Positions 7,344 through 43,330 of a stretch of DNA of 64,000 nt are shown one piece after another. Every line of letters starts with the position of its first letter. Position 1 is the stretch's first letter. The notes beneath the pieces were generated by a model. That model worked only from the letters and a program-made list of their open reading frames with translations. It did not search any database and was not told where the DNA came from. Made by a program: the position numbers and the translations under genes. The DNA comes from Luteococcus japonicus (GTDB taxonomy: Bacteria > Actinomycetota > Actinomycetes > Propionibacteriales > Propionibacteriaceae): the NCBI RefSeq assembly GCF_003752415.1, contig NZ_RKHG01000001.1, forward strand, positions 2,356,001-2,420,000, written 5' to 3'.

Positions 7344-7420
7344 GCGGGCGTAGCTCAATGGTAGAGCAGCGCCAGCTTCCCAAGCTGGACACGCGGGTTC
7401 GATTCCCGTCGCCCGCTCCA
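7344..7420 (+). tRNA. tRNA-Gly (anticodon CCC), copy 1
   Basis: Acceptor GCGGGCG pairs with CGCCCGC (7410-7416). The D-arm is TAGCTCAATGGTAGA, the anticodon stem CCAGC/GCTGG encloses TTCCCAA (anticodon CCC), and the T-arm is CGGGTTCGATTCCCG. The discriminator T is followed by an encoded CCA (7418-7420). All arms are intact, so it should be functional. Confidence 0.95.
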
Positions 7421-7673: not shown

Positions 7674-7750
7674 GCGGGCGTAGCTCAATGGTAGAGCAGC
7701 GCCAGCTTCCCAAGCTGGACACGCGGGTTCGATTCCCGTCGCCCGCTCCA
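7674..7750 (+). tRNA. tRNA-Gly (anticodon CCC), copy 2
   Basis: Identical to the tRNA at 7344-7420, exactly 330 bp away, including the encoded CCA. The duplication doubles the local dose of this isoacceptor. Confidence 0.95.
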
Positions 7751-22592: not shown

Positions 22593-23801
22593 ATGACCAT
22601 CATCCCAGAGCCCCACCACCACGTCGCAGGAATCGACTCCCACACCGAGACCATCCACATCGCGGTCATCACCGCCACCGGGCTCGAGGTCGACGACCAC
22701 GAGTTCACCACCACCACTACCGGCTACCGCAAGGCAGTGGCCTGGCTGGTCGAGCACGGACCTATTGCAGCTGTCGGCATCGAGGGCACCTCCAGCTACG
22801 GCATCGGCATCACAGCAGCACTACGAGCCGCGGGCATCACCGTCATCGAGGTCAACCGCACCCGCCCCGCCGAACGCCGCAAGCACGGCAAGACCGACCG
22901 TCTCGACGCCTACCGCGCCGCTCGCTCCGTGATCTCTGGAGAAGCGGCCACCCATCCCAAACACGACTCCATCGAGCCCCTTCGAGCCCTGCTGGTCACT
23001 CGACGCAGCGCCAACAAGGCCCTCCAAGCCTGCTGGCGCCAAATCCGCAGCCTCTTGGTCAACGCACCCGCCACGCTACGAGACAAATACCGCCAAACCA
23101 GCCGCGACAAGCTCATCCGTCATCTCGCTGCCAGCCGCCCCGACCAGATCCATGACGCCGCCCAGGCCCTCACCATGCGAGCCCTGCGATCCCTGGCCCG
23201 ACGCCACCAGTTCCTGCACGACGAACTGGTCGACCTGGAAGCCCAGCTCGACGAACTCACCACAACCAAGAACCCCGGGCTGCGCGCCATGCACGGAGTC
23301 GGGCCGGTCACTGCCGCTGTCCTGCTGGTCACGGCCGGCGACAATCCCGCCCGCCTCGCCACCCCTGCCGGGTTCGCGGCGCTCTGCGGTACCAGCCCGA
23401 TCCCCGTGTCCTCGGGCAAGACCCAACGCCACCGCCTCTCACGCGGCGGCGACAGGCAGGCCAACTGGGCGCTCCACCAAATCGTGAAGGTCCGCATGGT
23501 CCACGACCAACGCACCCGCGACTACCGCGACAAGCACCTCGAAGCAGGCTGGACCCTCGCAGCCGTCTACCGGGCACTCAAACGAGCGGTCGCCCGCGAA
23601 GTGTTCCGAGCACTCACCGGCAACTGCGAGATCCCGAACTACACCGATCTGCGCCCCGCCCGCCAGGCCAAGAACCTCACCCTCACCCACGCTGCCCAGC
23701 ACTTCAACGTCTGGCCCGCCCACATCTCCGAGATCGAGCTCGGCAAACGCCGAGACGACACGCTGGCCCAGAACTACCGAGAATGGCTCCGAGCCGCTTG
23801 A
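22593..23801 (+). CDS. IS110-family transposase (DEDD) with extra C-terminal HTH
   Basis: 402 aa. The N-terminal RuvC-like DEDD domain shows VAGIDSHTETIHIAVI (Asp), GIEGTSSYG (Glu) and KTDRLDAYRAAR (Asp pair). The C-terminal Tnp_20 domain has MHGVGPVTAAVLL, FAALCGTSPIPVSSGKTQRH and the serine that forms the DNA link. Beyond it, about 45 residues (LTLTHAAQHFNVWPAHISEI and on) look like a small helix-turn-helix absent from the shortest members. Intact and probably active. Confidence 0.9.
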   Translation: MTIIPEPHHHVAGIDSHTETIHIAVITATGLEVDDHEFTTTTTGYRKAVAWLVEHGPIAAVGIEGTSSYGIGITAALRAAGITVIEVNRTRPAERRKHGKTDRLDAYRAARSVISGEAATHPKHDSIEPLRALLVTRRSANKALQACWRQIRSLLVNAPATLRDKYRQTSRDKLIRHLAASRPDQIHDAAQALTMRALRSLARRHQFLHDELVDLEAQLDELTTTKNPGLRAMHGVGPVTAAVLLVTAGDNPARLATPAGFAALCGTSPIPVSSGKTQRHRLSRGGDRQANWALHQIVKVRMVHDQRTRDYRDKHLEAGWTLAAVYRALKRAVAREVFRALTGNCEIPNYTDLRPARQAKNLTLTHAAQHFNVWPAHISEIELGKRRDDTLAQNYREWLRAA

Positions 23802-23895: not shown

Positions 23896-24969
23896 CTAGG
23901 CCCACGACTGGAGGTGGTCGTCCACATTGGGAATCCCCTTGGCAAGAGTGGTCCGCCACTCCAGTTTGCCGTTGTGCTGCAGGTTTCCGATCACCAAGGC
24001 GGGGGCCACCTCGAGTCTCTCGGCCAGCTCGGTTACGGTGGCCAACGTGATGGCTCCTGAAATCTCTACTGAGCCACCCAACGCCCAACGCTCAGCCAGC
24101 GTGTTTGCTTCGTCCTCGAGCTGAGGTCGCCCTTCGGCGTCTGCGCCGTCGATGGTGATCCCTTCGGTCAAATGTCCTGCGACGACGTGTGCCGTCTCGT
24201 GCATCAACGCGAAGACGACCTTGTCAAGACGTTTGCCGCGACCTGAGATCGCGATGACTGGGGTGTCCCCCATCAAGAACGCTGCGCCATCAATCTTGCC
24301 GCCGGGGAGCTGTTCCACGAAAACGAGGATTACACCGCATTGCCGATAGCGAGTCGGCAAGTCGTCAAAGTCGGATGGCTCTCGAAGCGCGTGTGGCAGT
24401 TCTTCGGCCAAGCTCTGGAGCTTCTCGGGGGAGTAACGGTCCGGCGGGACGGCTCCTCGCGCTTTCTGAGCTGCAGCCCACAACCATCCCCGCTGAAGAA
24501 GTGAGACCTCGTCCTGGGAGTTGGAGCGCTTGGCGGCGAGCGCAAACTGGGGGGTGTCATCGGTGGACGCCATGTTGAAGTCACGCAGGACCTGCCGCTT
24601 CAACTCGTGCACGTCTGCATCGCGGTCGATGACTCCGCGCTTCTCGAGTGCAACGAGGGGGATGATCTTCGCGATCTCGGCGCGCGCTGCACCCCGGTCA
24701 ACCTTTGCCACGGCAGCGCTGTCCTGCTCCAGAAGCCAAAGGTTGTAGCGATTCTGGAGGTTCAGCCAGAACTCCGGCGACGTTTCGAGGGCGGCGCCGA
24801 TCTGCTGCGCGGACTCTGCTGTCAGCTCCTTCTTCCCGTTGATGATCTCGGACACGAACTGGACCGGACGGCCGATGATGCCGGCGAAGTCCGCCTGTGA
24901 CCAGTCGCGTGCCTCCAGCTCGTCGGCCAAGTACTCCCCGGGCGCGAACGCCTCAGCTACCTTCATCAT
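23896..24969 (-). CDS. HigA-like HTH/ImmA-type metallopeptidase antitoxin
   Basis: 357 aa. An N-terminal Xre HTH of the HigA type (EYLADELEARDWSQADFAGI to FWLNLQNRYNLW, about 12-80) is followed by a C-terminal zinc-peptidase domain with HETAH (257-261), as in ImmA/IrrE proteins. Fusions like this usually pair with a HigB/RelE toxin, encoded here 21 nt upstream. Expected to neutralise the toxin and repress the operon. Whether the HExxH site is active is unknown. Confidence 0.85.
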   Translation of the reverse strand: MMKVAEAFAPGEYLADELEARDWSQADFAGIIGRPVQFVSEIINGKKELTAESAQQIGAALETSPEFWLNLQNRYNLWLLEQDSAAVAKVDRGAARAEIAKIIPLVALEKRGVIDRDADVHELKRQVLRDFNMASTDDTPQFALAAKRSNSQDEVSLLQRGWLWAAAQKARGAVPPDRYSPEKLQSLAEELPHALREPSDFDDLPTRYRQCGVILVFVEQLPGGKIDGAAFLMGDTPVIAISGRGKRLDKVVFALMHETAHVVAGHLTEGITIDGADAEGRPQLEDEANTLAERWALGGSVEISGAITLATVTELAERLEVAPALVIGNLQHNGKLEWRTTLAKGIPNVDDHLQSWA

Positions 24970-24990: not shown

Positions 24991-25296
24991 CTAGTGATAG
25001 TCGACGATTTCGATGACGACCACGACTCGGCCGGCCTGGTCAGTTCGGAACGTCACGATCAGCCGGTAGCCGCCGTGAAGACGTAGGGAGCTGTGCCCTG
25101 CTCGGTCGCCCTTCAGCTTCTCCAGTCGGAGTGCTTTGAGGTTGCGCAGCTCTTGGTCGTCTTGGGACGCGTAGAGGGCGCCGACCACCTTTCGATAGGC
25201 CCGCACCACCTCAGCACCCAGCCTGGGGTGATGGTAGGAGGCGTCCTCGTACAAGCGCTTCAGTCGAGCGTCACTAAACTCCACTAGCACTTGCAC
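24991..25296 (-). CDS. HigB/RelE-family toxin
   Basis: 101 aa, the usual size for ribosome-dependent mRNA interferases of the RelE/HigB fold. Core segments are LKALRLEKLKGDRAGHSSLR and GGYRLIVTFRTDQAG, followed by VVVIEIVDYH, the HigB-type C-terminus. GTG 25296 follows GAAGGGG. First gene of the toxin-antitoxin operon, the usual higBA order. A clear promoter lies 26-53 bp upstream. Confidence 0.85.
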   Translation of the reverse strand: MQVLVEFSDARLKRLYEDASYHHPRLGAEVVRAYRKVVGALYASQDDQELRNLKALRLEKLKGDRAGHSSLRLHGGYRLIVTFRTDQAGRVVVVIEIVDYH

Positions 25297-26526: not shown

Positions 26527-28362
26527 TCACTCTTCCGCTGTGTCTTCCAGCAGATCGTTCGGGTCGAAGTGCTCGGAGTCTTCGGTGGCCAAGCCGGCGC
26601 TCACGTCTCGCTGGACCTGCTTGCCCATCGCTGCTTCGACGAGGAGGCACAGGGCTTCACGCCGTTCGTCGAAGTAGGCGTCAAAGTCGTCGGAGCGCAA
26701 GCGTTCGCTCGGCACCAAGTGGCTCTCGAGGAGGGACTCCAAGCGCTCGGGCGAGATCTGGGCCTTGCGCTCAATGACCGGCAGATAGGCGGACGGCGCG
26801 ACGCCACCGATGGTCCGGTTTGTGCGGGCGCTGATCGCGGTCTTGTTGATGATGCTCTCACGCCGCTCGTCATCGATCCCGTACTCGTTGCACCACTTCT
26901 GCGGGAAGATGTGGTGAATGTCCACGGCAAGATCGACGTACTGGATTTTGTCGAGTGCCTTGTCCTCCATCCAGTCGCGAGCACCGTTGGCGAGGATCAG
27001 AGCGGAGATGCCCTTGTATGCCGCCGCGTTGCGGGTGCGCAGCGAATGGAGACGTGACTCAGTGAAGCTCGCGTCCTGAACGGTTCGAGGCGCCGGTTGG
27101 CTGTCGTCACGAGCCCACAAGGGCACGCTCTCAAGATCCCGGACGAAACGCGTCTCAATGGTCGATCCGTACAGCTCACCCAGCACCCCACACCAGTACC
27201 AGCGCGTGAGTCGTTCCTTGACGCCGATCAGGTCGGCATCATTGCCCAGCAACACCTTGATTGCTGCCAGGGGGACAAGCTGCTTCGGGTACGGAACGTC
27301 GCGCGGGGCGAAGATGTGTCGATCAGCCAGGAATGTGGAAGCCCAGATGAAGGCATCCCGCAGCGGTGCTCGCCATTCCAGATAGTCGGCCAAGGTCAGT
27401 TTGAGGACGTCCTCGCGCTTGGCAGAGACCGCTGGCGGGCGGCCGGAGGAGTCGTCACGGTTGCGGCGCCACGTGGTCAGCATGGTGACGGCCTGCAGAA
27501 AGTCGGTGTTCTCTACCGAGTCGAGAACGGGGTGTGCCGCCCAGAGCGCCCTGGTCTCGTGCCAGTCGTCGTTCAGGCGGAAGTCTTCGCCGGTGGCCGC
27601 GTAGTGGTCTGCGTCTCCCGCGAACACCGCCGTGAGGAGCTCAAACACGTTGAGTGGAAGGCCGCCGATGTTGACCTTCTCGAAGACCGTCGCGACGGCC
27701 GCCTTGTCGGTGTCCTCGTCCAGCACGATTGCGGGGATGTCGTAGGTGGCGGCCGGCTTGATGAACTGTTCGTGGAACCGCCTGCCCAGATCGTGGTCTT
27801 CAAGGCCGAAGACCCACGTCATGTAGTCCCCGTAGAGCAGGTTCAGCGGGAAGTAACCCTCCGCCTGCTGCTTCTCAGGAGTGCTGAGGTCGAGGACGAC
27901 GTCCTTGCCGAAGTTCGTTCGGATGATCGCGTCGCCCGGGATGCTGATGATGGCTTCGTCGACACGATTGGCGTCAGACAGCGCCGTTTCCATGTGGACG
28001 AAGTAGCGTCGTTCCATCAGCTTCCCGCGGTTGTCCTTCGTCGCGACGACGCCGTTGCCGGCCAAGGCTTGGGTCAGCGAGGTGAGCCGCTGCTGCCCGT
28101 CGAGTAGGAGGTACTTGGCTTCCACTCCAGCCGGCACACCGGAACCTTCGATGGGGCGGGGCTTGAACCGAACTTGGGAGTTGCCCGTCTTCAACAGCAT
28201 GACGGCGCCCAGGGGGTGTCCACGCAGCACGGTCACGAGAAGCTGGCGGATGCGCTCGTCCTCCCACTTGTAGCCGCGCTGGAAGTCGGGGAGTTGGATC
28301 TCGCCGGATCGCGTCCACTTCAGGTATTCGCCGAGTTCGTACATCGGGGTCAGGAATCCCAT
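26527..28362 (-). CDS. GmrSD-like DUF262/HNH restriction protein
   Basis: 611 aa. The N-terminal DUF262 (ParB/Srx-like, NTP-using) domain has LPDFQRGYKW and YLLLDGQQRLTSL with the DGQQR motif. The C-terminus carries an HNH nuclease of the DUF1524 type: DIHHIFPQKWC (His 483-484), then INKTAISARTNRTIGG. This is the single-chain layout of GmrSD-type restriction factors, which cut modified phage DNA or respond to it. Last gene of the operon, 2 nt after the PD-(D/E)xK nuclease. It may be a second, modification-dependent nuclease beside the type III enzyme (inference). Confidence 0.85.
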   Translation of the reverse strand: MGFLTPMYELGEYLKWTRSGEIQLPDFQRGYKWEDERIRQLLVTVLRGHPLGAVMLLKTGNSQVRFKPRPIEGSGVPAGVEAKYLLLDGQQRLTSLTQALAGNGVVATKDNRGKLMERRYFVHMETALSDANRVDEAIISIPGDAIIRTNFGKDVVLDLSTPEKQQAEGYFPLNLLYGDYMTWVFGLEDHDLGRRFHEQFIKPAATYDIPAIVLDEDTDKAAVATVFEKVNIGGLPLNVFELLTAVFAGDADHYAATGEDFRLNDDWHETRALWAAHPVLDSVENTDFLQAVTMLTTWRRNRDDSSGRPPAVSAKREDVLKLTLADYLEWRAPLRDAFIWASTFLADRHIFAPRDVPYPKQLVPLAAIKVLLGNDADLIGVKERLTRWYWCGVLGELYGSTIETRFVRDLESVPLWARDDSQPAPRTVQDASFTESRLHSLRTRNAAAYKGISALILANGARDWMEDKALDKIQYVDLAVDIHHIFPQKWCNEYGIDDERRESIINKTAISARTNRTIGGVAPSAYLPVIERKAQISPERLESLLESHLVPSERLRSDDFDAYFDERREALCLLVEAAMGKQVQRDVSAGLATEDSEHFDPNDLLEDTAEE

Positions 28363-28364
28363 GA

Positions 28365-29519
28365 TCAGTGCCTCTCCAAGTTCGTGTCCAAAGCACCTTC
28401 GACGAGGTACTTCAAAGTGGCGTCCAACAGGTTTGTGAGATCGACGGCATTGATGCGGTCGAGGTTCAGCGCGATCACTGCCTCAAACCGGAGGGTTCCG
28501 TCACCGGCGAACGGTGGTCGGGTGCTGCGACGGTTTCCTTCAACCCCGCCGGGGTTGTCCTTCGTGCGGAACCCGCGCTCAATGACCGCGTCCCAGTCTC
28601 CTCGGGCCTTCGCCGGCACATGTCGGCCCAACGCCTGTGCTGGGTCAGGAAATCCGCTGCTCTTGAGGTGCGCTTCCAGAGCCGCGCGGCTCATCTTGCT
28701 CATCAGCCTGGTTGCCAGGTCGAACGCTTCTCTGCGGTGGGCGGCGGTACTGGGGAGATCTGAATAGTCGACACCGAAACGGAGCTCCGCGCCCGCCATG
28801 TCCTTCCACCAGCGCATTTCCGCGATCACGTGGCGCCACCCTTGGACGTCAAGGGGGGCCCACGCCTGGATGATTGGCAACCCGCCACCACTCGTGACAC
28901 TTGGTCGAGTGACGCGTGCGGGGTCTCGTTCCAGAACCAGCGCGCCGACACGGCGGGTGAGGGCTTGGCCAAGGAACCGCTCACGGATCGTGGACAACGC
29001 CTCTCCATCAGATCCAAGCACGCCGGTGAGAGCGGCGTCCCAGTGGGCGAGCGTGGCCGCACACCGGTCGGCGAGTTGGGCGGTGAACTCCTCTGAGGAG
29101 TCGTGCCATTGCCGGAACACGTCGGCCAGCGCCTGGAACTGCCAGTTCGGGTCGGCTTCCGGCACGAGGGCCCGGTCTGTTGATAGCCCGAGGAGGAAGA
29201 CGGGGGAGTCGTGGCTGGTTGCCCACTCGGTGTAGCGGGTGCGCTGGTCGTCGCTCAGTACGTGGCCGAGCTTCACCTCGATGAGGGCACGCTGGCCACC
29301 GTCGCCTTCCAGCAGGACATCCGCATTCCCCAAGGAGCGCCCAGAGCCCGCAGCGTGCAGCCGCTGTTCGCGGAGGACCCGTGTTGGCGCGAATCCGACG
29401 AGCCGTCGCCACGGTGCGGGATCGAGCTCGCTGAGCTCCTGCAGGAGGTTCGACACGTTGGATTCCTGGGCAAGGACCCGGTCGAACCCGCGAAGCCCCG
29501 CGGCGCTCCCTTCCGACAT
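28365..29519 (-). CDS. Stand-alone PD-(D/E)xK nuclease
   Basis: 384 aa. The N-terminal third contains a complete PD-(D/E)xK core: Asp67 in NADVLLEG, Glu81 and Lys83 in ALIEVKLGH, and the QxxxY motif Gln92/Tyr96 in DQRTRY. The rest has no family I know; it contains AWAPLDVQGWRHVIAEMRWW. ATG 29519 overlaps the Res stop as TGATG (a GTG 3 nt upstream is the alternative). Immediate coupling to the type III restriction gene suggests it supplies or augments DNA cleavage for that system. Confidence 0.75.
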   Translation of the reverse strand: MSEGSAAGLRGFDRVLAQESNVSNLLQELSELDPAPWRRLVGFAPTRVLREQRLHAAGSGRSLGNADVLLEGDGGQRALIEVKLGHVLSDDQRTRYTEWATSHDSPVFLLGLSTDRALVPEADPNWQFQALADVFRQWHDSSEEFTAQLADRCAATLAHWDAALTGVLGSDGEALSTIRERFLGQALTRRVGALVLERDPARVTRPSVTSGGGLPIIQAWAPLDVQGWRHVIAEMRWWKDMAGAELRFGVDYSDLPSTAAHRREAFDLATRLMSKMSRAALEAHLKSSGFPDPAQALGRHVPAKARGDWDAVIERGFRTKDNPGGVEGNRRSTRPPFAGDGTLRFEAVIALNLDRINAVDLTNLLDATLKYLVEGALDTNLERH

Positions 29520-32182
29520 CACATCCCCTCGATCAGTGACGACTGATCAGCGCTGACGGTTCCGCCCGAGTGGGCAGGTGCAGGTAGATCAGGTCGAGAA
29601 GGAGTGCCGCGGGAGGTGTAGAGGTTGTCCAAGGAGCGGGTCTCGTTCCACCGCAGCACGTGCTCCTGCACGGTGGGCGACTTCAGGTCGAGGGTCCACC
29701 GCTTGGATCCGAGCTCGATGGTCGACTCGATTCTGTGGAACTTGTCTCCGTGTTGCTGGGCAAAGGTGGTCAGGGCCCGCAGCTTGCTGACGGCATCATC
29801 AAGGTCAAAACGGTGCGGGTCAACGATGGACGGCTTGATCAGGCCGTCAACCCGCTCGAACAGGATGAAGTCGGGGTACAGACCGCGCCAGTTGCCGATT
29901 TCATTCCGGTAGGCGACGCAGAGTGAGTCCCCGGCCGATCGAGGCGGGTTGCGGTACCAGGCAACGAGGTCGGCTCGGCTCACTTCGTCAAGGATGAGCC
30001 GTCGTTCCCACAGGTTGAGCTTGCCGAGCGGGTAGTTGCCGTCCTCGTCCGACATGAGATGCTTCGGGGCCAACGGTGCCGCAACGGGCGCGTCGTTGCG
30101 GTCCAGTTCCAGATACGACTCCATGCGGTTGCGAGGCGTCACCATGCTGGCGTCCTGTGGCTCGGGGTCTTGCGCCTTGATGTCGCGGTACCGCTCGCGG
30201 CGCAGGTCACTGAGCAGCTCGATGGCGTCGCCGTGTTCCCAGTCCCAGTCGCCGAAAATGCTGTTGGCGCGGTGCTCCACGGAGGCGCGGACGTGAGGTG
30301 CCGTCGCCAGGGCGGAGATGCGGATCATCGCCTCACGCTCGGGGTTGGCAAAGTCGTCTTCCTCCCGGGCCGTCTCTCGGTTCACGAAGGCGCGGGCGAC
30401 ATCGCTGAACACGGCGACGGCGTTCTTGTAGGCGATGGCCACCGCTTGGTCGTCCGCCTCCAAGGCGAACTCCTCGTAACTGAGGCGCTCCTCCCCGGTG
30501 GTTCCCGAGATGGACATGCCGCGAATGGTCTCCACCTCGCGACGTGACAGTTCGATCTCCTTGCGGTTCAGCTTCCCGAACGCCTCCAGCGCGATGAGGC
30601 ACTCCTCCTCGGCTTCCGCCACCGCTCCAGGGCGGATGCCGTCCGTCTCCAACTCCGTCGCGAACTGGAGCAGGCGGCTGACGGGTTTCACGCCCCGCTG
30701 CGGGAGCGTCTGGGTCGGAAGCGCCCGCCACGCGTCCCACACGGCTTCGGCGTCCTCGATGTGCGGGTTGACGCTCATCTCGCGCGCGTCGAGCAGGACT
30801 TCCTTGCCGGAACCGGGGACGTCCTTGGCGGTGCCGGTGAGCTCTCGCACCACCTTGCCGGCCGTGGTGCGGTCGAAGTGTGGGAGCAGGCAGTTGACGG
30901 AGTTGAGGCGCTCGTCGCCCGGCACTCGACGGGCCAGTGGGTTGCGCACCATGCGGCCGAGAATCTGGGTGATGTGGTCCTTCTCCTTGGCCGTTCGGAA
31001 ACTCACCATCACCTCCGCGCGCGGACAGTCCCACCCGGTGCTGATCGCCTCCTTGGCGATGAGGACGCGGATCTCGGTCTTCTCCTGCACGTCCTGTGCG
31101 GGAATCCAGCCGACGCGCCAGCTGCCGAACTCTTGGTCAGAGTGCTCACCGAGAACGTGACGCACGTTGCTGTCGATGATGTTCGGCATCACTTCACGGA
31201 TGACGTCGAGGGCGCGGCCCACTTCGTCATGGTCCGGCCTGTTGGGGATCTGGAGGACGAGCAGTGGAACCACATGGGTGCTCGGGTCCTGCTGAACGCG
31301 GGCGTACTCCCGCCACGCCTCGGTGGCGTTCCGGAGTCGTTCGGCGCCCTTTCTCACGAGCGCGCGGTCGAAAACGCCGTTCTCGGTGGTGAAGTCGACC
31401 ACCACGGTGTCTTTCAGAAGACCAGACTCCTGCACCCGCTCGCCGTCAACGTTCACCGGCTCCAGCGCCTTGCGGTTGGACTGGAAGTCAGCGTCGCTCA
31501 TGGCGGTGGCGAACTTGCCGATGGTGGCCGAGATGCCGACCACGATCGGTGCTGGCTGGACCAGGTTCGACCCGTTGACCAGTCGCTTCACGATGGTCGA
31601 CTTGTCGCGCGTGGTCTTGGCCCCGAATCCGCGGTGCGCCTCGTCGAGAAACAGGTACAGCGTCAGGTTGGGGTCGGCGATGGTGTTGTTGATGGTTTCC
31701 CAGATGGTCCACGCCTGGTCATCCGGCTGCAGCGAGTCCACCATCGCGTCCTGCAAGTCTTCGGCGGGGGCCCCGCGGGTCAGCTTCGACTTCGCCCCCA
31801 GCTTCTGGGTGTTCAGGAAGTACACTTTCCCGGCTTCGAGCCGTGGCTGGGCGAATGGCGGCTCGATCGTCACCAGATCGGACCGCACGAGCTTGTCGGA
31901 CGCGTCCATGAGTCGCTGCTTGGTCTGGGCGTTCAGCTCGGGGCTGTCGGAGAACCAGATGACGACGGCCGTCTCGTCCTGCTCGAACTCGAACTCGTCG
32001 GACCCGTTGAAAAGCGCCTCGATGACGGCCGCGGACATGACGGTCTTGCCAGCACCAGTCGTGGCGCACAGGCTCACCGACGAGCGCTCGTCGAAGCTGC
32101 GGAACTGCGAGCGGGCACTCTCCAGCCGCTCGAGCAGTGCAGAGACGGCGTCGGCCTGGTAGTCCTTCAGGGTGAACTTCAT
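29519..32182 (-). CDS. Type III restriction enzyme Res subunit (SF2 helicase)
   Basis: 887 aa. Type III-style SF2 translocase: Walker A ATTGAGKT (40-47), DEAH box LFLDEAH (177-183), VVGISAT, and motif VI QILGRMVRNP. In type III systems it works with Mod, translocates on ATP and cuts beside the site. The C-terminal nuclease candidate is YPDFILFER (Pro770-Asp771), but where E-x-K is expected I read IVDPHRF, so the usual catalytic Lys is not evident. Start ATG 32182 overlaps the Mod stop as ATGA; sequence upstream of it in this frame lies inside mod. Confidence 0.85.
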   Translation of the reverse strand: MKFTLKDYQADAVSALLERLESARSQFRSFDERSSVSLCATTGAGKTVMSAAVIEALFNGSDEFEFEQDETAVVIWFSDSPELNAQTKQRLMDASDKLVRSDLVTIEPPFAQPRLEAGKVYFLNTQKLGAKSKLTRGAPAEDLQDAMVDSLQPDDQAWTIWETINNTIADPNLTLYLFLDEAHRGFGAKTTRDKSTIVKRLVNGSNLVQPAPIVVGISATIGKFATAMSDADFQSNRKALEPVNVDGERVQESGLLKDTVVVDFTTENGVFDRALVRKGAERLRNATEAWREYARVQQDPSTHVVPLLVLQIPNRPDHDEVGRALDVIREVMPNIIDSNVRHVLGEHSDQEFGSWRVGWIPAQDVQEKTEIRVLIAKEAISTGWDCPRAEVMVSFRTAKEKDHITQILGRMVRNPLARRVPGDERLNSVNCLLPHFDRTTAGKVVRELTGTAKDVPGSGKEVLLDAREMSVNPHIEDAEAVWDAWRALPTQTLPQRGVKPVSRLLQFATELETDGIRPGAVAEAEEECLIALEAFGKLNRKEIELSRREVETIRGMSISGTTGEERLSYEEFALEADDQAVAIAYKNAVAVFSDVARAFVNRETAREEDDFANPEREAMIRISALATAPHVRASVEHRANSIFGDWDWEHGDAIELLSDLRRERYRDIKAQDPEPQDASMVTPRNRMESYLELDRNDAPVAAPLAPKHLMSDEDGNYPLGKLNLWERRLILDEVSRADLVAWYRNPPRSAGDSLCVAYRNEIGNWRGLYPDFILFERVDGLIKPSIVDPHRFDLDDAVSKLRALTTFAQQHGDKFHRIESTIELGSKRWTLDLKSPTVQEHVLRWNETRSLDNLYTSRGTPSRPDLPAPAHSGGTVSADQSSLIEGM

Positions 32183-34203
32183 CGGGCGCTCCTGGCTGCG
32201 TCGATCTCGAAGTTGCGCAGGTAGCTCTCGTACAGGCGCACGGGTTCCACGTGGTCGGGCAAGTCGGCGCACACCGTCTGGAAGCGTCGCTCGTCATCCG
32301 TGACGACGTAGGCGAGCTTCGCCTCGGGGTTGGCTTCGAGCGCCGCGACGAATTGGTCCACGCGCTCGAGTCGGTCGATGACGCCGTAGGAGTCGGCGAC
32401 GTCCCACCCGTTCGGCAGTTCCTCGATGCGGCGCCCGCGGGCCCCGGCGCGCAACCACAGCAGCGGGGCAATACGCAGGAAGTCGTGGTGCGACTTCACC
32501 TTGAGCGGCGCCTCGTAGGTGAGCTTGAAGAACTCCACGTTGGCAGGAACCGTGTCCTCGAAGGTGCTCCCGTCGGGGCGCTCGCCCGTGGTGACCGCCA
32601 CGATGCGGGGTTTGGTCACCCAGTCGTGGACGCCCACCGCTTCCCACTCGGGGTCGCCCTGGCGATGGCCTTCCTTGACGAGGCGCTTGGCCTCCTTTGC
32701 GCCGACCTCGTTGTTGGTGACGAGGATGCACTGGCGCGTGCCGCCGTCCTGGGCGTTGAGTCGGGCGACGGCCTCCAGCGTGGAGCCCGAACCGCCGAAG
32801 AAGTCGAGGACAGTTGCATGAGACCCTGCAACGAGGCTGATCCAACGCATGAGGACGTTGTGGTCCTTGGGATTGGGGAATCGAGTGTCGCCCAAGACTT
32901 TTCTAGCGCGGGTATTTGCAGCCTTTCGGTCCTGCTGAAAGACCGAGAGAGGCACCTCAGACTCGACTTCGCTGAGGTACGTGATTCCGCGGGGGATGAC
33001 GGACGCATCGCTCCCGAACCACACGCGCCCGGCTGCGATCTGGTCATGCATCTTAGATTCGTTGAATCGCCAACCAGTCAGCGGTTTCTTGACCGGCTCG
33101 CCTGTGATGGGGTGTGGAACTTCGTAATAGTGCCCTCCATTGCCAGGCCATGTGATGTTTCCGTAGGTGTTGATGGGCTCGCCGTCATCGCTCAAGACGT
33201 CAAATCGTGCAACCGAATCGCTGAGGGTTCCCGCCGCCTTTGCCACCTTGAGCCATGTCTTCCATGCCTTGGCAAGCTCCGGCCCGGGGGAGTGCGTGCT
33301 TCTCAGCTCTGCCGCCTTCTTGCGCGCCTCTGCGAGCCCTTGCTTGGTCTCACGCCAGCGGATTCCGGACTCACGGAGAGCCTCACTTCTCTTGGCGAAG
33401 ATCAGCATGTAGTCGGCGCCATTGGAGACGTAGCGAGAGTCGTTCTTGCGTCCGCCCTGCCAGACAACGTCAGAGATGAAGTTCTCCGCGCCGAAGGTCT
33501 GGTCCATGAGCATCCGCAGGCGGTGGTGCTCGTCGTCGCCGATCGCGACGATGATGACGCCAGTGTCCTTCGACAACTCCTTGGCGAGCACCAGGCGCCG
33601 CTCCATGAAGCTGAGCCATTTGGAGTGGCGGTAGAGGTCCTCGCCGCCTACGTAGCGGTCGGAGTAGATCCAGTCGTCATTGCCGGTGTTGTAGGGAGGG
33701 TCGATGTAGATGCAGTCGATGCTCGCCCGGTGGGTGTACAGCAGGGCCTTGAGGGCGTGCAGGTTCTCGGCGTTGACGACGGTGTGGAACGGCTTGTTCC
33801 CGTCCAGCTCGATGCGACGGGTGCTCTCCAGGCCGGGATAGATCACGTCGTTGCTCTCGGCGACCACGACGAGTTCGGGCAACGGGTGCTCGGCGGTGTC
33901 CCCGGTCGCGTCGTCGCGAAGCTGGACGATCCGACCATCTCCCGCGCCTGTCGCTCCGGTCACCTTCCACAGCCGGGTGTCGGGTGCGGCCGTTTCACCG
34001 CGCGGCGCGAGCATGCGCACCTTGTCGCCCATCCGGATGGGGCGGCCGAACAGGTCGACCGCCTCGGGGGCGTGCCGCTCGAAGTTGAGGCCGAAGGCGC
34101 GGCGATCCTGAAGGTGCTTGACCTCCTTGTCGATGGCTTCGCCCAATTCGGGGTTGAGACGCTTCGCCTCCTGGATGAGGTCGGTCAGACGAGACACGCT
34201 CAC
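32179..34203 (-). CDS. Type III DNA methyltransferase (Mod), beta class
   Basis: 674 aa. DNA N6-adenine or N4-cytosine methyltransferase with the catalytic motif DPPYNTG (168-174) upstream of the AdoMet motif DFFGGSGST (about 470), i.e. beta-class order, as in type III Mod. An N-terminal extension of about 110 residues precedes the catalytic region. It protects self DNA and provides specificity to the Res protein encoded next. GTG 34203 overlaps the helicase stop as GTGA. The recognition sequence cannot be read from the protein. Confidence 0.88.
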   Translation of the reverse strand: MSVSRLTDLIQEAKRLNPELGEAIDKEVKHLQDRRAFGLNFERHAPEAVDLFGRPIRMGDKVRMLAPRGETAAPDTRLWKVTGATGAGDGRIVQLRDDATGDTAEHPLPELVVVAESNDVIYPGLESTRRIELDGNKPFHTVVNAENLHALKALLYTHRASIDCIYIDPPYNTGNDDWIYSDRYVGGEDLYRHSKWLSFMERRLVLAKELSKDTGVIIVAIGDDEHHRLRMLMDQTFGAENFISDVVWQGGRKNDSRYVSNGADYMLIFAKRSEALRESGIRWRETKQGLAEARKKAAELRSTHSPGPELAKAWKTWLKVAKAAGTLSDSVARFDVLSDDGEPINTYGNITWPGNGGHYYEVPHPITGEPVKKPLTGWRFNESKMHDQIAAGRVWFGSDASVIPRGITYLSEVESEVPLSVFQQDRKAANTRARKVLGDTRFPNPKDHNVLMRWISLVAGSHATVLDFFGGSGSTLEAVARLNAQDGGTRQCILVTNNEVGAKEAKRLVKEGHRQGDPEWEAVGVHDWVTKPRIVAVTTGERPDGSTFEDTVPANVEFFKLTYEAPLKVKSHHDFLRIAPLLWLRAGARGRRIEELPNGWDVADSYGVIDRLERVDQFVAALEANPEAKLAYVVTDDERRFQTVCADLPDHVEPVRLYESYLRNFEIDAARSAR

Positions 34204-35726
34204 GCTCCCTGGTTCTGCTGCTCTGAAAGGTCGATCTTGCCACGTGCGAAGCTGCCCAGAATCCGCTGGTGCGTCTGCCGAGGCAACTGTCGGAAGCCGG
34301 GTTCGCCAAACGGTGTTCCCGGGCGGGCCGGTGCGGTTTCGAGGAGGTCATCGAGCCCCGTCCTGCTGAGCACGAGCAATCCATGGGTGGCGCGGGTGCA
34401 GGTGACGGCCAACCGCCCGAACGCGGAGTTGAAGTCGTCCAGTTGCGTCGCGCCTGTCAAGGGGTGGAAGGCGATGGTCAACGCGTTGGTTCGGCCCTGC
34501 CAGGAGTCCACCGTGGACGCGACCAGGTCGCGCTCCTGCAGCCCGTGCTTCTCGCGCAGCCGCTCCGCCACGGCGTGCAGGTCGTCGACGGCCTGGTTGC
34601 GAGTCGCCAACAGCACGACCAGCGGGTCACCTGTGGCGGTGCCTCCCGGATTGTCGGTCTTCACCTCTCCCGTGGGCTGCGCGTCCGACGCGTACTCGGC
34701 GGTCTCGACGGTGAAGCCGTCGCTGAACAGATCATCCAGCCAGCCCTCAAGGGCCAGCGTGAGCGGAAGGTCGACGTCGGGAGCCTCCGAGTCGGGCAAC
34801 CCGTCCACCTTGAGGAGAGTCGGGACTCCCGTGCCCACCTGCCGCCACAACGGCGCCGACGGTCCGTTGCCGTGGGGAACGATCCGGCGATCGCCCGGCG
34901 CGGCGACGGAGTTCAGCTCGCCCCATCCCGGGTAGAAGGCGCGCCACAGTCCCAGCGCTTCCCCCGCCGGACGCCACACCGCGGGCAGTTCCCGCTCCCA
35001 GGTCGAGGACTTTCCGTGGAAGGCGATCGGCCACGCGCGGTAGGGGTTGTGGCCAGAGTCACCGCGCCACGGATTCGTGCCAACCTCCAACGGCGGGAGC
35101 TGACCCACGTCACCGACGCCGACGATTACCGGCGCGAGCCTGCCGACAACGTCGAACAGGTGGTGCGGCATCTGCCACGCCTCGTCCACGAACAGCACGT
35201 GGAACAGGGGATGCCCCTCTTCCACGCCCAACGCGTCCGCGATGCGCCCCTTTTCGCCGGGGGCCTTGAGCTTGTGGGCGGTGGCGACGAGGACGTCGCA
35301 GGAGGCTGGGATGTCCTTCGCCTTGGTGACCACCGTCACCTGCTGCTCGACGTCTGGAGGCAGCTGGTCCATCGCGTTCTGTGACAGGTGCAGGCAGACG
35401 CGTGCCCGACCCAACTCCTTCGCGAGCCCCACGGCCAACGGCCGGATCTGGTTGTTGGTGAAGGCGGTGACACCGACAGCGCGAGAACCGGGGGAGCCCG
35501 CCGCGGCCACGATCAGCTGCCGCAGGGCGTAGGACTTGCCGGCGCCAGCCGCCGCCTTCAGCAGCAGGTGCGTGATTCCCTCGCCTGCCAGCTCCGCATG
35601 GGCAAGAGCCGTCAACAGGGTCGCTTTCGCCTCGGCGACCACTGCCGTGTTCCCGGCCGCCGCCTCAGCGTGGTGTTTTCCCGCCTCGGCCGGGCCTGTG
35701 GTGAAGGTGACCTCACTCCAGCTCAT
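34200..35726 (-). CDS. SF1 DNA helicase (UvrD/Dna2/Upf1-like AAA)
   Basis: 508 aa. Superfamily 1 helicase: Walker A AAAGAGKS (58-65), Walker B VLFVDEAWQMP (Asp181-Glu182), motif III GDVGQLPPL (205-213), and C-terminal TVDSWQGRTNALTIAF with RLAVTCTRATHGLLVLSR. There is no nuclease domain in this chain, but the gene overlaps the preceding Cas4-like nuclease gene by 14 bp. Together they have the parts of a Dna2-type nuclease-helicase. Not a standard component of type III restriction. Confidence 0.8.
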   Translation of the reverse strand: MSWSEVTFTTGPAEAGKHHAEAAAGNTAVVAEAKATLLTALAHAELAGEGITHLLLKAAAGAGKSYALRQLIVAAAGSPGSRAVGVTAFTNNQIRPLAVGLAKELGRARVCLHLSQNAMDQLPPDVEQQVTVVTKAKDIPASCDVLVATAHKLKAPGEKGRIADALGVEEGHPLFHVLFVDEAWQMPHHLFDVVGRLAPVIVGVGDVGQLPPLEVGTNPWRGDSGHNPYRAWPIAFHGKSSTWERELPAVWRPAGEALGLWRAFYPGWGELNSVAAPGDRRIVPHGNGPSAPLWRQVGTGVPTLLKVDGLPDSEAPDVDLPLTLALEGWLDDLFSDGFTVETAEYASDAQPTGEVKTDNPGGTATGDPLVVLLATRNQAVDDLHAVAERLREKHGLQERDLVASTVDSWQGRTNALTIAFHPLTGATQLDDFNSAFGRLAVTCTRATHGLLVLSRTGLDDLLETAPARPGTPFGEPGFRQLPRQTHQRILGSFARGKIDLSEQQNQGA

Positions 35727-38403
35727 CGGTGGTCACTCCTTCGGGGGCGGTGGTGGTGAACGGTTCGACGCTGCGTGATGTCGGTTTGTGTGCAGCCGGC
35801 ACCTCGAACCCGTCGTCGTCCCGGACGGGTGGCCACACCTCGGGGTTCAGCTCCCGACGGGCGCGACGGATAGCGATCTCGTCGGAGAAGTCCCGTTCCA
35901 CGGCCTCGTGCGGCTTGCAGCACCACTTGTGCGCCTCCGAGTCGGCGGAGAAGGAGCCGGGTTCACACGACTTCTTGGGAGCGGCGTTCTCGTCCTGGCT
36001 CGGCCGGGGGAGGTTGAATTCCTTCGACGTCTTCAGCTCACCGAAACCGGCGAGACGAGCGATCACCAGACGGTCACCGACCTCGACTCCCGGGTCGATG
36101 GCGGGCTGCCAGACGAACTGCTCCGCGGTCGGCTCCGGGACGGTCTCCTCCAGCGCAGCGATGGGGAAGTTCCTCAGTCGGACGCTGCCCTTCTGCGGGG
36201 TCACGACCACGGGGGCGGACTCCACCCACGCGGCGTCGGCCTTGGACAGCATGATCACGCGGTCGCCTGCGCCGAACTGGCGTGACTCCACGCTGAGCGT
36301 CAGGGGCTGGAGCGCGGTCACTTGAGCCCAGCAGGCGTCACGGCTGCCAGCGTCCGTGGCCACGGCGGCTGCGCTCAACGGGTTCACGAGCATCGCGACC
36401 TGCGCCTGGCACGTAGCGTCAGCCTGGATCACGTCCACCAACTGGTTGCGCCAGTACGGGTACGTGCGCCCGAAACGAACCAGGTCGGAGGCTCGCAGAC
36501 GCATGCGGCGCCGCCACACGCGCTGGGCGTCCCCCTCGAAAGTCCGATAGGCCGGCTGGAGCTTCGAGTCGGGGACTGTTTGCAGCGCGCGAACGGCGGC
36601 GTCGAAGGTGGCGGTGCGGTACTGCAGCTCAGCCATCACCAACTCGTCGTAGTTGTCACCCCGAGCGCCAGTGCGGGCCGCCATCATCGCGGCGTGGATG
36701 CGGTTCGAAGACTCGTTGGACAGGCGAGCGCCTGGAGTCAGGAGGGATTCCTCAATCGAGTCGGTGACACTTCGGTGATCGACTGTCTCGTGTGCGGCCG
36801 CCCACGAGACCGCGTAGTCCAGACGGCGGGCCTGGCTCGAAGCCCCGCCGGGGACGAAGTAGCGCGACATCAATGACGTGAGGTCGACCAGCGGTTCACG
36901 CAGGGACAGCATCCGCGCCCGGTCCTGCTCCAACAGGAAGGAGACGGCCACTCGGCGAGACCCGTCCAGAGTCTTCGGCATGGTCGCTTCCTCACCGTTG
37001 TAGGTGAGGATGGGGCGTCCCATCTCCTTGTCACGTTGCCACCGCAGGCGACTCAGCTCGACGCCGGCGAGCAAGTCGGCCGTGCTGGCGAGCAGGTCGG
37101 CCGTTACCCCATCCGGGACGACGATGTGTACCGGCAGGGGTGAGTCGGTGTCCGCTTCCCGCAGCTCGCGCATCGCAAGCTCGATCGCGTTGCCGATCTG
37201 GGCCATGACGCTGCGACGGGTGAGGTCCGCCTGTGGGTCCGGGAACGTCTTGTAGGTCCACTCAGTGGTGCTTTGGTTGGTCACGCGGCTCACGGCCAGT
37301 CCATGGAAACCCAAGGCGGCTGCGTCGCTCTTGACCGCCACCACGTTCACGGTGCCGGGACGACCCACGGGATCGAGACGCAGTTGCCCGGTGCGACCGA
37401 CGTGCCCCGACACCGTGGCCGTGACGCGACGAACCAGCGTCGGGTCAGCAGCGGGACCGGGGTTCCCACCGGAGAGGATTGCCTCCACCCCTGCGCGTTC
37501 AGCGACGGGGACGCCGATTTCTCGCAGAAGCGCGTCAGGGTCCTGCTTTCCGCGCAGCTCGCTGCGGCAGTAGCGGAACAACGAGCAGGAGGGGCACGTG
37601 TTGGGGTCGAACCCGGGATCCAGCGGGGCCACGAGCTGCTCGGCCGTTCCGTTGACGGTCTCTGGAAGGTCGAGCGCGTCCAAGCGGTTCTGCCACTGCG
37701 TCTCGACCTCCTGGAGGTGGTCAGTCAGGTCTTCGACTTCGACCGTGGGCTGGAGGAAGACGCTGCGCGGCACAGCAAGAAACCCGTGGCTGCTCACTTC
37801 AAGCCCGCCAGGACGGGTAGGCCACTGGGAGAACGCGAAAGCGCCCATCGCCACTTGCAGGAATCCCTTGAGCAGGCGGCCGTCGTCGATACGGGACCGG
37901 ACCCGCTCGTAGTCCTTGACGTCGCCGACGATCAACGTGGGGCCGTTGGGGCCACGGGCAACAACGGCCAGGTCAGGAAGGACGGTTGTCGCGTCCCCCT
38001 CGGTGAAACCCGGGTACGGGAAGGCCAGCTTGTAAAGGAGGGTCGCTGAGCCAACTCGGGCCCGTTCCGCTGCGGTGTGCAGAGCCTCGCGAGTGTCCAC
38101 CACGCTGACGTTGCAGTCGTGGCGATAGACGTCAGCGGGTCGCTCGAAGCCGCTCCAACCGGTGGCGCGGGCCGTCACCTCTCCCGCAAAGGCCCCGTCG
38201 TGGCAGAGACGCTCGAAGATCATCGCGCGGGTCCAGCGGGCATCCGGAATGCCGGCGGTGGCGTCGGGCGCTCCCAGCTCCTTGGCGAGCAGCCTTCGCG
38301 ATTTCCCTGTGACCATCGGGTCCGTGCCGCGGTAACGCTCGCACCCAGAATGGACGGCCCAAGAGGCTGCGCTCGATGCGCCGCCGGCAATAGTCTTCTG
38401 CAC
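35713..38403 (-). CDS. Large Cas4/AddB-like Fe-S nuclease protein
   Basis: 896 aa. The N-terminal part is a RecB-type nuclease with a likely [4Fe-4S] cluster: Cys21, then Asp144 (LPDLAVV), Asp161 and Lys163 (VGDVKDY), Gln183, then CPSCSLFRYC giving Cys270, Cys273 and Cys279. This is the Cas4, AddB and Dna2 nuclease arrangement, also seen in TM0106-type proteins. The remaining 600 residues are of unknown fold, with a Cys-rich tail (CCKPHEAVERDF) near the C-terminus. GTG 38403 was chosen because TAGGAG lies just upstream. First gene of the six-gene operon. Confidence 0.75.
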   Translation of the reverse strand: MQKTIAGGASSAASWAVHSGCERYRGTDPMVTGKSRRLLAKELGAPDATAGIPDARWTRAMIFERLCHDGAFAGEVTARATGWSGFERPADVYRHDCNVSVVDTREALHTAAERARVGSATLLYKLAFPYPGFTEGDATTVLPDLAVVARGPNGPTLIVGDVKDYERVRSRIDDGRLLKGFLQVAMGAFAFSQWPTRPGGLEVSSHGFLAVPRSVFLQPTVEVEDLTDHLQEVETQWQNRLDALDLPETVNGTAEQLVAPLDPGFDPNTCPSCSLFRYCRSELRGKQDPDALLREIGVPVAERAGVEAILSGGNPGPAADPTLVRRVTATVSGHVGRTGQLRLDPVGRPGTVNVVAVKSDAAALGFHGLAVSRVTNQSTTEWTYKTFPDPQADLTRRSVMAQIGNAIELAMRELREADTDSPLPVHIVVPDGVTADLLASTADLLAGVELSRLRWQRDKEMGRPILTYNGEEATMPKTLDGSRRVAVSFLLEQDRARMLSLREPLVDLTSLMSRYFVPGGASSQARRLDYAVSWAAAHETVDHRSVTDSIEESLLTPGARLSNESSNRIHAAMMAARTGARGDNYDELVMAELQYRTATFDAAVRALQTVPDSKLQPAYRTFEGDAQRVWRRRMRLRASDLVRFGRTYPYWRNQLVDVIQADATCQAQVAMLVNPLSAAAVATDAGSRDACWAQVTALQPLTLSVESRQFGAGDRVIMLSKADAAWVESAPVVVTPQKGSVRLRNFPIAALEETVPEPTAEQFVWQPAIDPGVEVGDRLVIARLAGFGELKTSKEFNLPRPSQDENAAPKKSCEPGSFSADSEAHKWCCKPHEAVERDFSDEIAIRRARRELNPEVWPPVRDDDGFEVPAAHKPTSRSVEPFTTTAPEGVTTDELE

Positions 38404-38450: not shown

Positions 38451-38837
38451 TTAGACCGGCTGTCGGCAGTCGGGGCAAACAACATCGCCAGCCCTCTCGG
38501 GCCACAGCCGAAGGAGTTCGGAGACCGTCTCCTCCCACTCTTTGACGCGGGAGGTCGGAACGTTCACAGCCGAGGTTCGGCCGTGTAACACATCACAGGT
38601 GGTTGCGTAGCAGTACCGCGCGCGGCGCACGGCGAGATAGCGGACATCCCAATCAGGGGCATCGGGGGCAGGTAAGAGAGTGAGCAGGCGCGCTCCCACT
38701 GAGCGGTGCCTGGTGATCGTCGTGCCCGTCTTGTTACCGAAGGCCGCGGCAGAAATGAGCTCCAGCTGGTTGCGCAGCTGGTGGGCTCGCAACCGCGTGA
38801 CGGTGGCGGCGGGCAAGCAGGTCGGCAGTTCACACAT
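38451..38837 (-). CDS. Unknown small protein coupled to the half-ATPase gene
   Basis: 128 aa, not recognised. Contains RAHQLRNQLELISAAAFGNK, RARYCYATTCDVLHGRTSAV and a C-terminal CPDC pair. The LHG after an Arg-rich helix faintly recalls HEPN-type R-x-H motifs, too weak to assign. It overlaps the upstream ATPase gene by 8 bp and ends 48 bp before the Cas4-like gene, in the same orientation. Confidence 0.55.
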   Translation of the reverse strand: MCELPTCLPAATVTRLRAHQLRNQLELISAAAFGNKTGTTITRHRSVGARLLTLLPAPDAPDWDVRYLAVRRARYCYATTCDVLHGRTSAVNVPTSRVKEWEETVSELLRLWPERAGDVVCPDCRQPV

Positions 38838-40062
38838 GATGGGTCCCGGTAAGCGTTTCGCCGATCGCTTCGGCTGTGTCGAGCTCCGCCTCGGTCACCT
38901 TCTCCTTGCCAGGGCACTGAGAGGGTTGTCCGTGCGCGGCCCGGTTCCACGGCTCTTCGTAGTCCGTCAATAAGGCCTTGGCCTTTGCCAGAGCGTTGAG
39001 TCCAGCCGCATCGATGCCGGGGCGCCTGGCCGCACTGAAACGGTCCGACAATTTGTTCACATTCACGGCGTCGAGCTGGCCAAGCCACGCGTCTGGCGAG
39101 GCTCCATTCTTGGCCGCCTGCTGAGTCACGAACAGGCGAAGCGCGTTGTCGACGGCCTGCCGGCACAGCCCCCTGATCGACGTCGAAAGTGGTGTCAGAT
39201 GGCCCAGCCCAAAGAGACGCCGGGCGTCCTCCAGCAGGAGACGCCACACGGCGTCGGCGCTCAGAACCTCCAGCGTGCCGCTGGAGTTGCGCGAGATGCT
39301 GCGGACGTCGACGTCGACGCTTGCGGCAAGGAGCTGCTCCTTGAGGCGTTCGTCGTGAGTCAGGACGATCACGCGACGCGCCCGCGCGATCTGCACCAAC
39401 GCCTTCGCCGTACGGTCCACTCGCAGTTCGTCGAAGGCGTGGACCGGGTCATCCAGGATCATGAATCCGAAAGGGCCGTTCTCGGCCACCGCCAGCGCGG
39501 GAGCAAGGATGACCGCGTTGCGTTGCCCCGCGCTCAACATGCCCAACTGGATTTCTCGACTGTCCTGGGTATCGCTGTCGGAAGCTCCAGAAGCGCGCTC
39601 CAGGACGAAGTCGGCTCGACTCTTCTGCACTTTCACGTTACGAACGTTGAGACCTGCGTCATCGAGCAAGTTGGAGACAAAGGAATCAACACGACGCGCG
39701 AGGTCTGACTCGCGGTTCTGCTTCAACTGGTCCTCAACCTTGTCGAGGTACTTGTTCGCCCACTGCCATGCGGCCTTGTCAGCCGGCGCTCCATGGTGTT
39801 CACGCCATACGTCGTAGAACTGGGTGGCGGCTGCGTGGATCTTTCGGTTGATTACGCTGGTTTGCTCAATAGCCTGAACTGCCGCGTCGAGGTCTTCCTT
39901 AGTTCTTGCAGGGCTCTTTGCTCCAGATCCTCTACCTGCGAATTTGGTGAGCTCAACGTCAACAGAGCGGTGGATACCCACAGCGTCAGGATGACGCCAG
40001 CGAGTGACAGTGCCGTGTTCGAAGCGTCCAGCCCCAGTTGGGAGTTGTGCCACGTTCGCCAT
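38830..40062 (-). CDS. C-terminal half of a RecF/SMC-like ABC-type ATPase
   Basis: Up to 410 aa. A coiled region is followed by the ABC signature (IQLGMLSAGQRNAVILAPAL), Walker B with D-loop (GFMILDDPVHAFDELRVD) and switch His (VIVLTHDER). No Walker A or N-terminal ATPase lobe is present, so as it stands the site is incomplete. A C-terminal helical region includes EEPWNRAAHG. Homology-like sequence starts near RTKEDLDAAVQ (about 39920), inside the end of the two-helix membrane protein gene read in another frame. A frameshift joining the two, or loss of the N-terminal half, would explain this. Confidence 0.55.
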   Translation of the reverse strand: MANVAQLPTGAGRFEHGTVTRWRHPDAVGIHRSVDVELTKFAGRGSGAKSPARTKEDLDAAVQAIEQTSVINRKIHAAATQFYDVWREHHGAPADKAAWQWANKYLDKVEDQLKQNRESDLARRVDSFVSNLLDDAGLNVRNVKVQKSRADFVLERASGASDSDTQDSREIQLGMLSAGQRNAVILAPALAVAENGPFGFMILDDPVHAFDELRVDRTAKALVQIARARRVIVLTHDERLKEQLLAASVDVDVRSISRNSSGTLEVLSADAVWRLLLEDARRLFGLGHLTPLSTSIRGLCRQAVDNALRLFVTQQAAKNGASPDAWLGQLDAVNVNKLSDRFSAARRPGIDAAGLNALAKAKALLTDYEEPWNRAAHGQPSQCPGKEKVTEAELDTAEAIGETLTGTHHV

Positions 40063-42256: not shown

Positions 42257-43330
42257 TCAACCTGTGTGGAGACACTCGCGGCGGGTTTGCTCGTCGAGGA
42301 TGCCGTCGGGGTTGAGCCAGGCATGTGCGGGTGGTGTGGCCAGGTGGGGTGGCTGAGTGAATCGTTGGGGATATCGGTGGGCGAGGGCCTCAAGAGTGGC
42401 TTGGCGTCGGTGGTGGACCTGGTGCCAGGTGCCGTCGTGAACCGACTGGGGCGTGTGGCCGGCCAGGGATGAGTGGGCGTGGTGCTGGTTGTAGTCGGTG
42501 ACCCGACGTGCGGCCCAAGACCGGGCGGCGTCGAGGTCGGTGAAGTATCCGGGCCAGTCACGGTGGTACTTCGCGGTCTTGAACCATGACTCCATGTGGG
42601 GGTTGTCGTTGGAGACCCGCGGCCGGTTGCGGGAGCGGGTGATGCCCATCGCGCGGAACACGCGGGCGAGTTCGTCGGACATCATCGACGGACCTCCATC
42701 GGAGTGGACGATGCGGGGATGGACGCCGTGCGTGGTGAATGCGGTGGTGAACATGTCGGCAGCCAGCTGGTCATCCTCGCAGTCCTCGACACGCCAAGCC
42801 ATGATCCGGCGGGAGAACACGTCAATGACGGCATACAGGTTGAACCATTGGCCCTTGTACCGGCCGGGCAGCTTGGTGATGTCCCAGCACCACACCTGGT
42901 TGGGGCCGGTGGCATGCCACTGCGGCATCGCCGACGAGCGCTTGCGGGAACGTCGAGCAGTGGTGCAACGGATCCGTTCGGCGCGGGCGATGCGGTACCA
43001 GGTCGACAACGACGCCACCGGATCCCCGGCGTCCAACGCGTCGAACCACGCCTGATACGCGCTGATTCCCTGCTGCGCCGCCGAGCGCAACAGGCCGATG
43101 ATGCGCTGCTGGTCCTGCTCCCCGACCCGGTTCGGGTAGGCCCGCCCCCGGTGTGGTGTCGGGCTGGCGATCCCGGGACGGGGATGACTGCGGTAGTGCC
43201 ACGACGAACGCGACAACCCGATCACCGACAACGATCGCCGCAGGCTCCAACCCGCCTGGCGCAGGTCGTCCACCAGCGCCTGTTCGGCCGCCAAGAACCG
43301 CTCCTGCTCGGCGCTGACCTGCCCCGTCAC
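42257..43330 (-). CDS. IS3-family transposase OrfB (DDE integrase domain)
   Basis: 357 aa. The DDE core shows VWCWDITKLPGRYKGQWF (Asp), RIVHSDGGPSM (Asp) and NPHMESWFKTAKYH (Glu); an HTH_21-like N-terminal region precedes it. GTG 43330 overlaps the orfA stop as GTGA. Intact. Family-typical expression is as an OrfAB fusion by frameshifting, although here the overlap would also permit coupled translation. Confidence 0.9.
   Translation of the reverse strand: MTGQVSAEQERFLAAEQALVDDLRQAGWSLRRSLSVIGLSRSSWHYRSHPRPGIASPTPHRGRAYPNRVGEQDQQRIIGLLRSAAQQGISAYQAWFDALDAGDPVASLSTWYRIARAERIRCTTARRSRKRSSAMPQWHATGPNQVWCWDITKLPGRYKGQWFNLYAVIDVFSRRIMAWRVEDCEDDQLAADMFTTAFTTHGVHPRIVHSDGGPSMMSDELARVFRAMGITRSRNRPRVSNDNPHMESWFKTAKYHRDWPGYFTDLDAARSWAARRVTDYNQHHAHSSLAGHTPQSVHDGTWHQVHHRRQATLEALAHRYPQRFTQPPHLATPPAHAWLNPDGILDEQTRRECLHTG

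Follow-up and report, generated by a model that had tools for sequence, protein, structure and literature searches.

Restriction-modification (R-M) is commonly pictured as a methylase and a nuclease, while the job of clearing up falls to housekeeping enzymes of the RecBCD/AdnAB type. In type III systems, Mod methylates host sites, and Res together with Mod cuts unmethylated invading DNA. The closest precedent for the operon analyzed here is the UvrD-Cas4 fusion, whose commonest neighbors are Mod and Res and for which an ancillary unwinding and cutting role was proposed (Hudaiberdiev et al. 2017, PMC5704561). The idea is the same, but the protein family is different. Like our gene pair A-B, the fusion brings together a nuclease of the Cas4 kind and a helicase of SF1. 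It lies most often beside Mod-Res, and its proposed ancillary role extends to several defense contexts. UvrD-Cas4 is a single UvrD + PF12705 chain, whereas A and B are two genes, A without PF12705 and B Dna2/Upf1-like; as far as covered here, the account of the fusion includes neither coupling to type ISP R-M nor a split form (PMC5704561).

With type III R-M of the EcoP1I/EcoP15I kind, the operon shares adjacent Mod and Res genes with methylase and ResIII helicase domains; it differs in having two extra conserved genes and a Res with DPH instead of (D/E)xK. With Dna2/AddAB, the A-B pair shares the Fe-S Cas4-type nuclease motif and an SF1 helicase, but it is split over two genes, has an extra middle domain and a C-terminal C/H cluster, and occurs in an R-M rather than a housekeeping context. 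No open-access full-text paper on A-B or its type ISP coupling was found; most subscription papers lie outside this coverage.

Genes of the operon and the split form of the pair

The locus occupies positions 26527-38403 of the Luteococcus japonicus window, by which we mean the whole 64,000-nucleotide stretch analyzed. All six minus-strand ORFs reported there by the initial annotation are intact, and the tight junctions can be read directly: A and B overlap by 14 bp, B/Mod by GTGA, Mod/Res by ATGA, and Res/E by GTGATG, while E and F are separated by a 2-nt gap. The start of gene A was set at 38403, since a longer ORF start at 38538 is unsupported by the alignment of homologs. The host genome is a single 3.45-Mb contig with one copy of gene A. 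The features, including two genes upstream of A, are as follows.

Gene A, 35713..38403, minus strand: 896 aa; Cas4/AddB/Dna2-type Fe-S PD-(D/E)xK nuclease, middle domain and C-terminal C-H-C-C-H cluster
Gene B, 34200..35726, minus strand: 508 aa; SF1B (Dna2/Upf1-type) helicase
Mod, 32179..34203, minus strand: type III DNA methyltransferase whose translation contains DPPY
Res, 29519..32182, minus strand: type III restriction subunit with helicase and nuclease parts; nuclease motif PDF...DPH
Gene E, 28365..29522, minus strand: accessory PD-(D/E)xK nuclease (D68, E82-x-K84), outside the conserved core
Gene F, 26527..28362, minus strand: accessory DUF262/ParB-HNH (GmrSD-like) protein
Gene V, 38451..38837, minus strand: 128 aa, between U and A; no above-threshold match among neighboring small ORFs
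Gene U, 38830..40062, minus strand: probably what is left of an SMC-like ATPase, its Walker A half missing; outside the core

Mod matched the PADLOC MTase_III profile (4.6e-149) and Pfam N6_N4_Mtase (1.8e-28). Res matched ResIII (4.5e-13), and its Walker A and DEAH motifs are visible in the alignment. A methylase with DPPY adjoins a Res with an SF2 helicase domain, in line with the initial assignment of the two genes to type III R-M. In the relatives examined, the C-terminal nuclease region of Res reads PDF...DPH rather than (D/E)xK, with Lys changed to His. The idea that Res is inactive and needs gene A as a substitute nuclease was dropped because DPH is equally present in Res proteins that lack A-B. 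BREX, DISARM, and MADS were also considered and rejected, as the PADLOC matches amounted to no more than weak resemblances among ATPases or methylases.

The N-terminal part of gene A (residues ~1-300) carries a Cas4/AddB/Dna2 signature: P143-D144, D161-x-K163, and cysteines spaced C-x2-C-x5-C. Among 47 homologs, C21, C270, C273, C279, D144, and K163 are invariant, and D161 is present in 46, so the PD...D-x-K residues and four Cys bear out the original description of a Cas4/AddB-like nuclease. No Pfam, NCBIfam, or PADLOC match was found for gene A; none of the 47 members matched PF12705 or a Cas4 family profile, and no Pfam family recurs among them, stray matches being confined to one or two members. 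Structure prediction gave a confident AlphaFold model (pLDDT 88.3, pTM 0.89), for which Foldseek ranked PD-(D/E)xK exonucleases first (MGME1, lambda exonuclease, and RecE), none at E < 0.001. When folded alone, the middle domain (~335-690) reached a pLDDT of 91.5, and its matches were mostly RNase H-fold proteins (the UvrC C-terminal half, PhoExo I, Argonaute, and the PolC exonuclease). Because none of these fell below 0.001, the RNase H-like fold is a suggestion from modeling. For the same reason we do not claim a catalytic RNase H in this domain; its acidic positions also looked different by eye in the middle proteins of the split form. At the C terminus, the C813-H825-C828-C829-H832 cluster is nearly invariant.

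In gene B, the positions of the GAGK, DEAW, GDVGQLPP, STxDxxQG, and GRLAVxxTR motifs are invariant in 31 of 31 homologs. Searches of Pfam, NCBIfam, and PADLOC returned SF1 matches below cut-off only, AAA_11 and AAA_12 included, and a gene B profile matched DNA2 structures weakly (E = 0.0066). In PADLOC 2.0.0 (2023), neither A nor B matched a specific profile, B giving only a weak mad8 match (0.0016). A-B is a family that the Pfam, NCBIfam, and PADLOC models missed here. AAA_11 and AAA_12 mark Upf1/Dna2 helicases, and the split-form homologs of gene B score above both cut-offs. With the catalytic residues of A and the SF1 motifs of B conserved, the proposal that the two genes make up a Dna2-like pair held; given the weak DNA2 profile match and the AAA_11/AAA_12 matches of the split form, the term is a fair account of appearance, not of family membership.

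Weak gene B matches within the class, in genomes resembling Streptomyces and in others, led to the split form. It encodes the Cas4-like nuclease, the middle protein, and the helicase as three genes, and this triplet was found in seven of eight loci examined as well as on a Streptomyces plasmid and in Nonomuraea. Because nuclease and middle protein exist separately in these loci, we regard A as a fusion of the two. Split homologs are frequent in Streptomyces, where the named cases are plasmids. In two genomes of the window's own order (L121 and L122), a divergently oriented triplet replaces A-B beside Mod-Res. In the few Streptomyces split loci examined, no neighboring gene was recognized as type III or ISP, except for a partial ISP-like helicase match in L166. 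Wadjet jet genes lie beside the triplet in two loci (L161:2318-7207 and L166), with a further 281-aa gene upstream.

Genomic partners of the A-B pair

Of the order's 392 genomes, 12 carry gene A, and B adjoins it in each of them. When 84,980 species genomes were scanned, 63 loci emerged, which belong to Actinomycetota according to their titles. B directly follows A wherever the contig continues, the two exceptions (L066 and L079) being contig ends, and nuclease and helicase are separate genes in the A-B loci examined. A-B was also found on mobilizable and conjugative plasmids. No gene A relatives were found in IMG/VR contigs and no gene B relatives in phage records.

To describe the partners of the pair, we used the 68 A-B loci of the gene A tree. 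Mod-Res lies directly downstream in 22 of them, two of which are on Rhodococcus plasmids, and a diverged Res-Mod pair is present in another two. In all 20 chromosomal or contig loci and in both plasmids, Mod-Res comes immediately after A-B, in the same orientation and without an intervening gene. Sixteen loci adjoin type ISP R-M, a single-chain enzyme (Mrr_cat_2, ResIII, coupler, and Type_ISP_C) unlike Mod-Res; it is upstream and head-to-head in 14, upstream on the same strand in one, and downstream in one. The window's own genome yielded no type ISP R-M. The remaining 28 loci have neither type III nor ISP genes adjoining, and hence A-B can exist without R-M. Most neighbors of these 28 loci do not look defense-like. 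The 28 include a group of Actinopolyspora loci, several of which share flanking gene families. In L052, B is still followed by a fragment of Mod, and therefore at least one lone A-B has probably lost its R-M.

Within the order, A-B adjoins R-M in 11 of the 12 A-bearing genomes (six type III and five ISP), and the probability of A and Res co-occurring in six genomes by chance is 2e-6. Partner type changes 12 times on the gene A tree, compared with 32 changes when labels are shuffled. Pairwise distances correlate for A-Res (r = 0.60), Mod-Res (r = 0.63), and A-ISP (r = 0.885), all values being inflated by shared host ancestry; the correlation of A with Res is nearly as close as that of Mod with Res.

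To avoid the bias of starting from A, we also used Res as the query. Among the 392 genomes of the order, eight Res proteins were at least 51% identical to it; six have A-B upstream, and two, those of L121 and L122, have the split form. Eight more distant full-length Res of the order were inspected, and neither A-B nor the split form accompanied them. Of the plasmid-encoded Res, two at 50% identity carry A-B, while for five at ~45% no A-B-sized genes are annotated before Mod-Res, plasmid annotation being incomplete. In the Res tree, 24 module-bearing Res lie on one side of a 100/100 branch, and eight relatives without the module fall outside. Most A-B rows of this tree came through A; the rows free of that bias are the ones supplied by the Res search. 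Overall, A-B and Mod-Res form an operon conserved well beyond close relatives, in 22 of 68 A-B loci across Actinomycetota and with one Res clade.

The conserved unit is this four-gene operon, A-B-Mod-Res, and not six genes. In gene E, D68...E82-x-K84 is invariant in three homologs. Outside the host, 395 genomes of the class gave four matches, of which the two good ones are solo genes, and at the thresholds used, E is absent from every other A-B locus. Gene F scores 99.6 bits for GmrSD_N (cut-off 33.2) and 14.5 bits for GmrSD_C (cut-off 23). It shares the DUF262 domain with GmrSD type IV systems, in keeping with its initial reading as DUF262-HNH, and its C terminus looks HNH-like but scores below the GmrSD_C cut-off. 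F is 78% identical to a solo DUF262 gene on Rhodococcus plasmids, one of which also carries A-B-Mod-Res ~20 kb away from the F homolog, and ~40% identical to homologs in Cyanobacteria and Sphingomonads; it was not found beside the core in the other A-B loci surveyed. Two Microbacterium loci carry a DUF262-GmrSD-RAMA protein of a different family directly after Res. Orthology of F to this protein was rejected, the two being 23 to 29% identical over partial stretches only; nuclease accessories after Res may nonetheless be a theme. The initial annotation had treated all six genes as one fixed machine and suggested checking the co-occurrence of the outer genes. This check favored A and B, which are regularly found beside this Mod-Res clade, but not E, absent from other A-B loci, or F, a separate solo gene elsewhere. 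E and F are most readily understood as accessories that belong to this copy of the operon.

Genes of the UvrD-Cas4 cluster occur in 12 A-B loci; in L025, where the fusion domains were confirmed, the fusion is distinct from A-B. Some type III loci may thus carry two helicase-nuclease units. A DUF6361 + PLD + DEAD-helicase gene set, possibly another defense system, recurs near A-B loci (L021:11690-17893, L019:1790-4838, L015, and others).

Proposed role and alternatives

On balance, sequence and gene order lead us to read A-B-Mod-Res as a defense operon in which A-B would be a second-stage partner of R-M, degrading DNA after restriction. Mod would methylate host sites, and Res with Mod would cut unmethylated invading DNA. 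Acting together like a split Dna2/AddAB, A and B would then take over: B would unwind DNA starting at the break or at translocation intermediates, and A, with its Fe-S nuclease, would degrade the exposed strand, so that a reparable cut would become destruction of the invader. E and F would be extra nucleases that joined this copy. The initial annotation had itself arrived at a marks-self, cuts, and degrades scheme by inference. Gene content, conservation, catalytic residues, and the clade-specific association were observed directly; a physical or functional coupling of A-B to R-M, its substrate and polarity, and defense itself are what we infer. The chief counter-evidence to this role is the set of 28 loci without type III or ISP R-M, together with how often the split form occurs in other Actinomycetes; the unusual nuclease motif of Res also counts against it. 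In other genomes the pair would work with a type ISP enzyme, which would make it a processing partner that can be exchanged among R-M systems in which methylation protects self. More tentatively, A-B and its split form may together be an undescribed Dna2-like immunity module recruited by at least two methylation-guided restriction enzymes of different biochemistry, type III and type ISP, as a dedicated degrading second stage, and it may also act alone.

A different role, in which A-B is an Actinomycetota repair or recombination helicase-nuclease that mends or trims R-M breaks in under-methylated host DNA instead of attacking invaders, would fit the 28 loci without type III or ISP, including the Actinopolyspora group with its partly shared flanking families. 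It would also fit the frequency of split homologs in Streptomyces and the fact that the AddB, RecB, and Dna2 relatives of the nuclease are repair enzymes (PMC5704561). However, the patchy occurrence of A in the order, the presence of A-B on mobilizable and conjugative plasmids, and its tie to one Res clade make such a role rather unlikely. It is less probable still that A-B is an independent defense system that merely neighbors R-M in defense islands, its operon reflecting co-transfer and not joint action. A-B does occur alone, the split form does lie beside Wadjet genes in two loci, and UvrD-Cas4, SMC, DUF262, and DUF6361-PLD-helicase genes are found near some loci; yet order and strand are fixed (20 of 20 for A-B-Mod-Res and 14 of 16 head-to-head for ISP), no more than two kinds of R-M recur, and which kind is the partner goes with the gene A tree.

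The layered six-gene machine of the initial annotation, sensing both unmodified and modified DNA, draws on the overlapping or abutting junctions that run through E and F and on the Microbacterium loci with a different DUF262-GmrSD-RAMA family directly after Res. We consider it very improbable, given that E and F are not beside the core elsewhere and that F is only distantly related to the Microbacterium family and stands alone on plasmids. If a second-stage role for A-B is true, some R-M systems, namely one type III clade and type ISP, carry their own degradation stage in the form of a partly plasmid-borne pair, and its presence with two kinds of R-M suggests a reusable DNA-shredding add-on.

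Surroundings of the operon

Gene U, upstream of the operon, aligns solely to residues ~496-746 of SMC proteins of 705 to 859 aa; full-length SMC-like ATPases of one cluster lie near several other A-B loci. Transposase genes of the Mutator, IS110, and rve types (window positions 20878-22137, 22593-23801, and 42257-43330) lie to either side of the operon, a hint that the region is mobile or rearranged. Just downstream of F, a HigB-like toxin gene (24991-25296) precedes an HTH + IrrE-like (M78) gene (23896-24969) of the same orientation, and the two are a probable toxin-antitoxin pair. The window also contains two tRNA-Gly(CCC) genes (7344-7420 and 7674-7750) ~250 bp apart.
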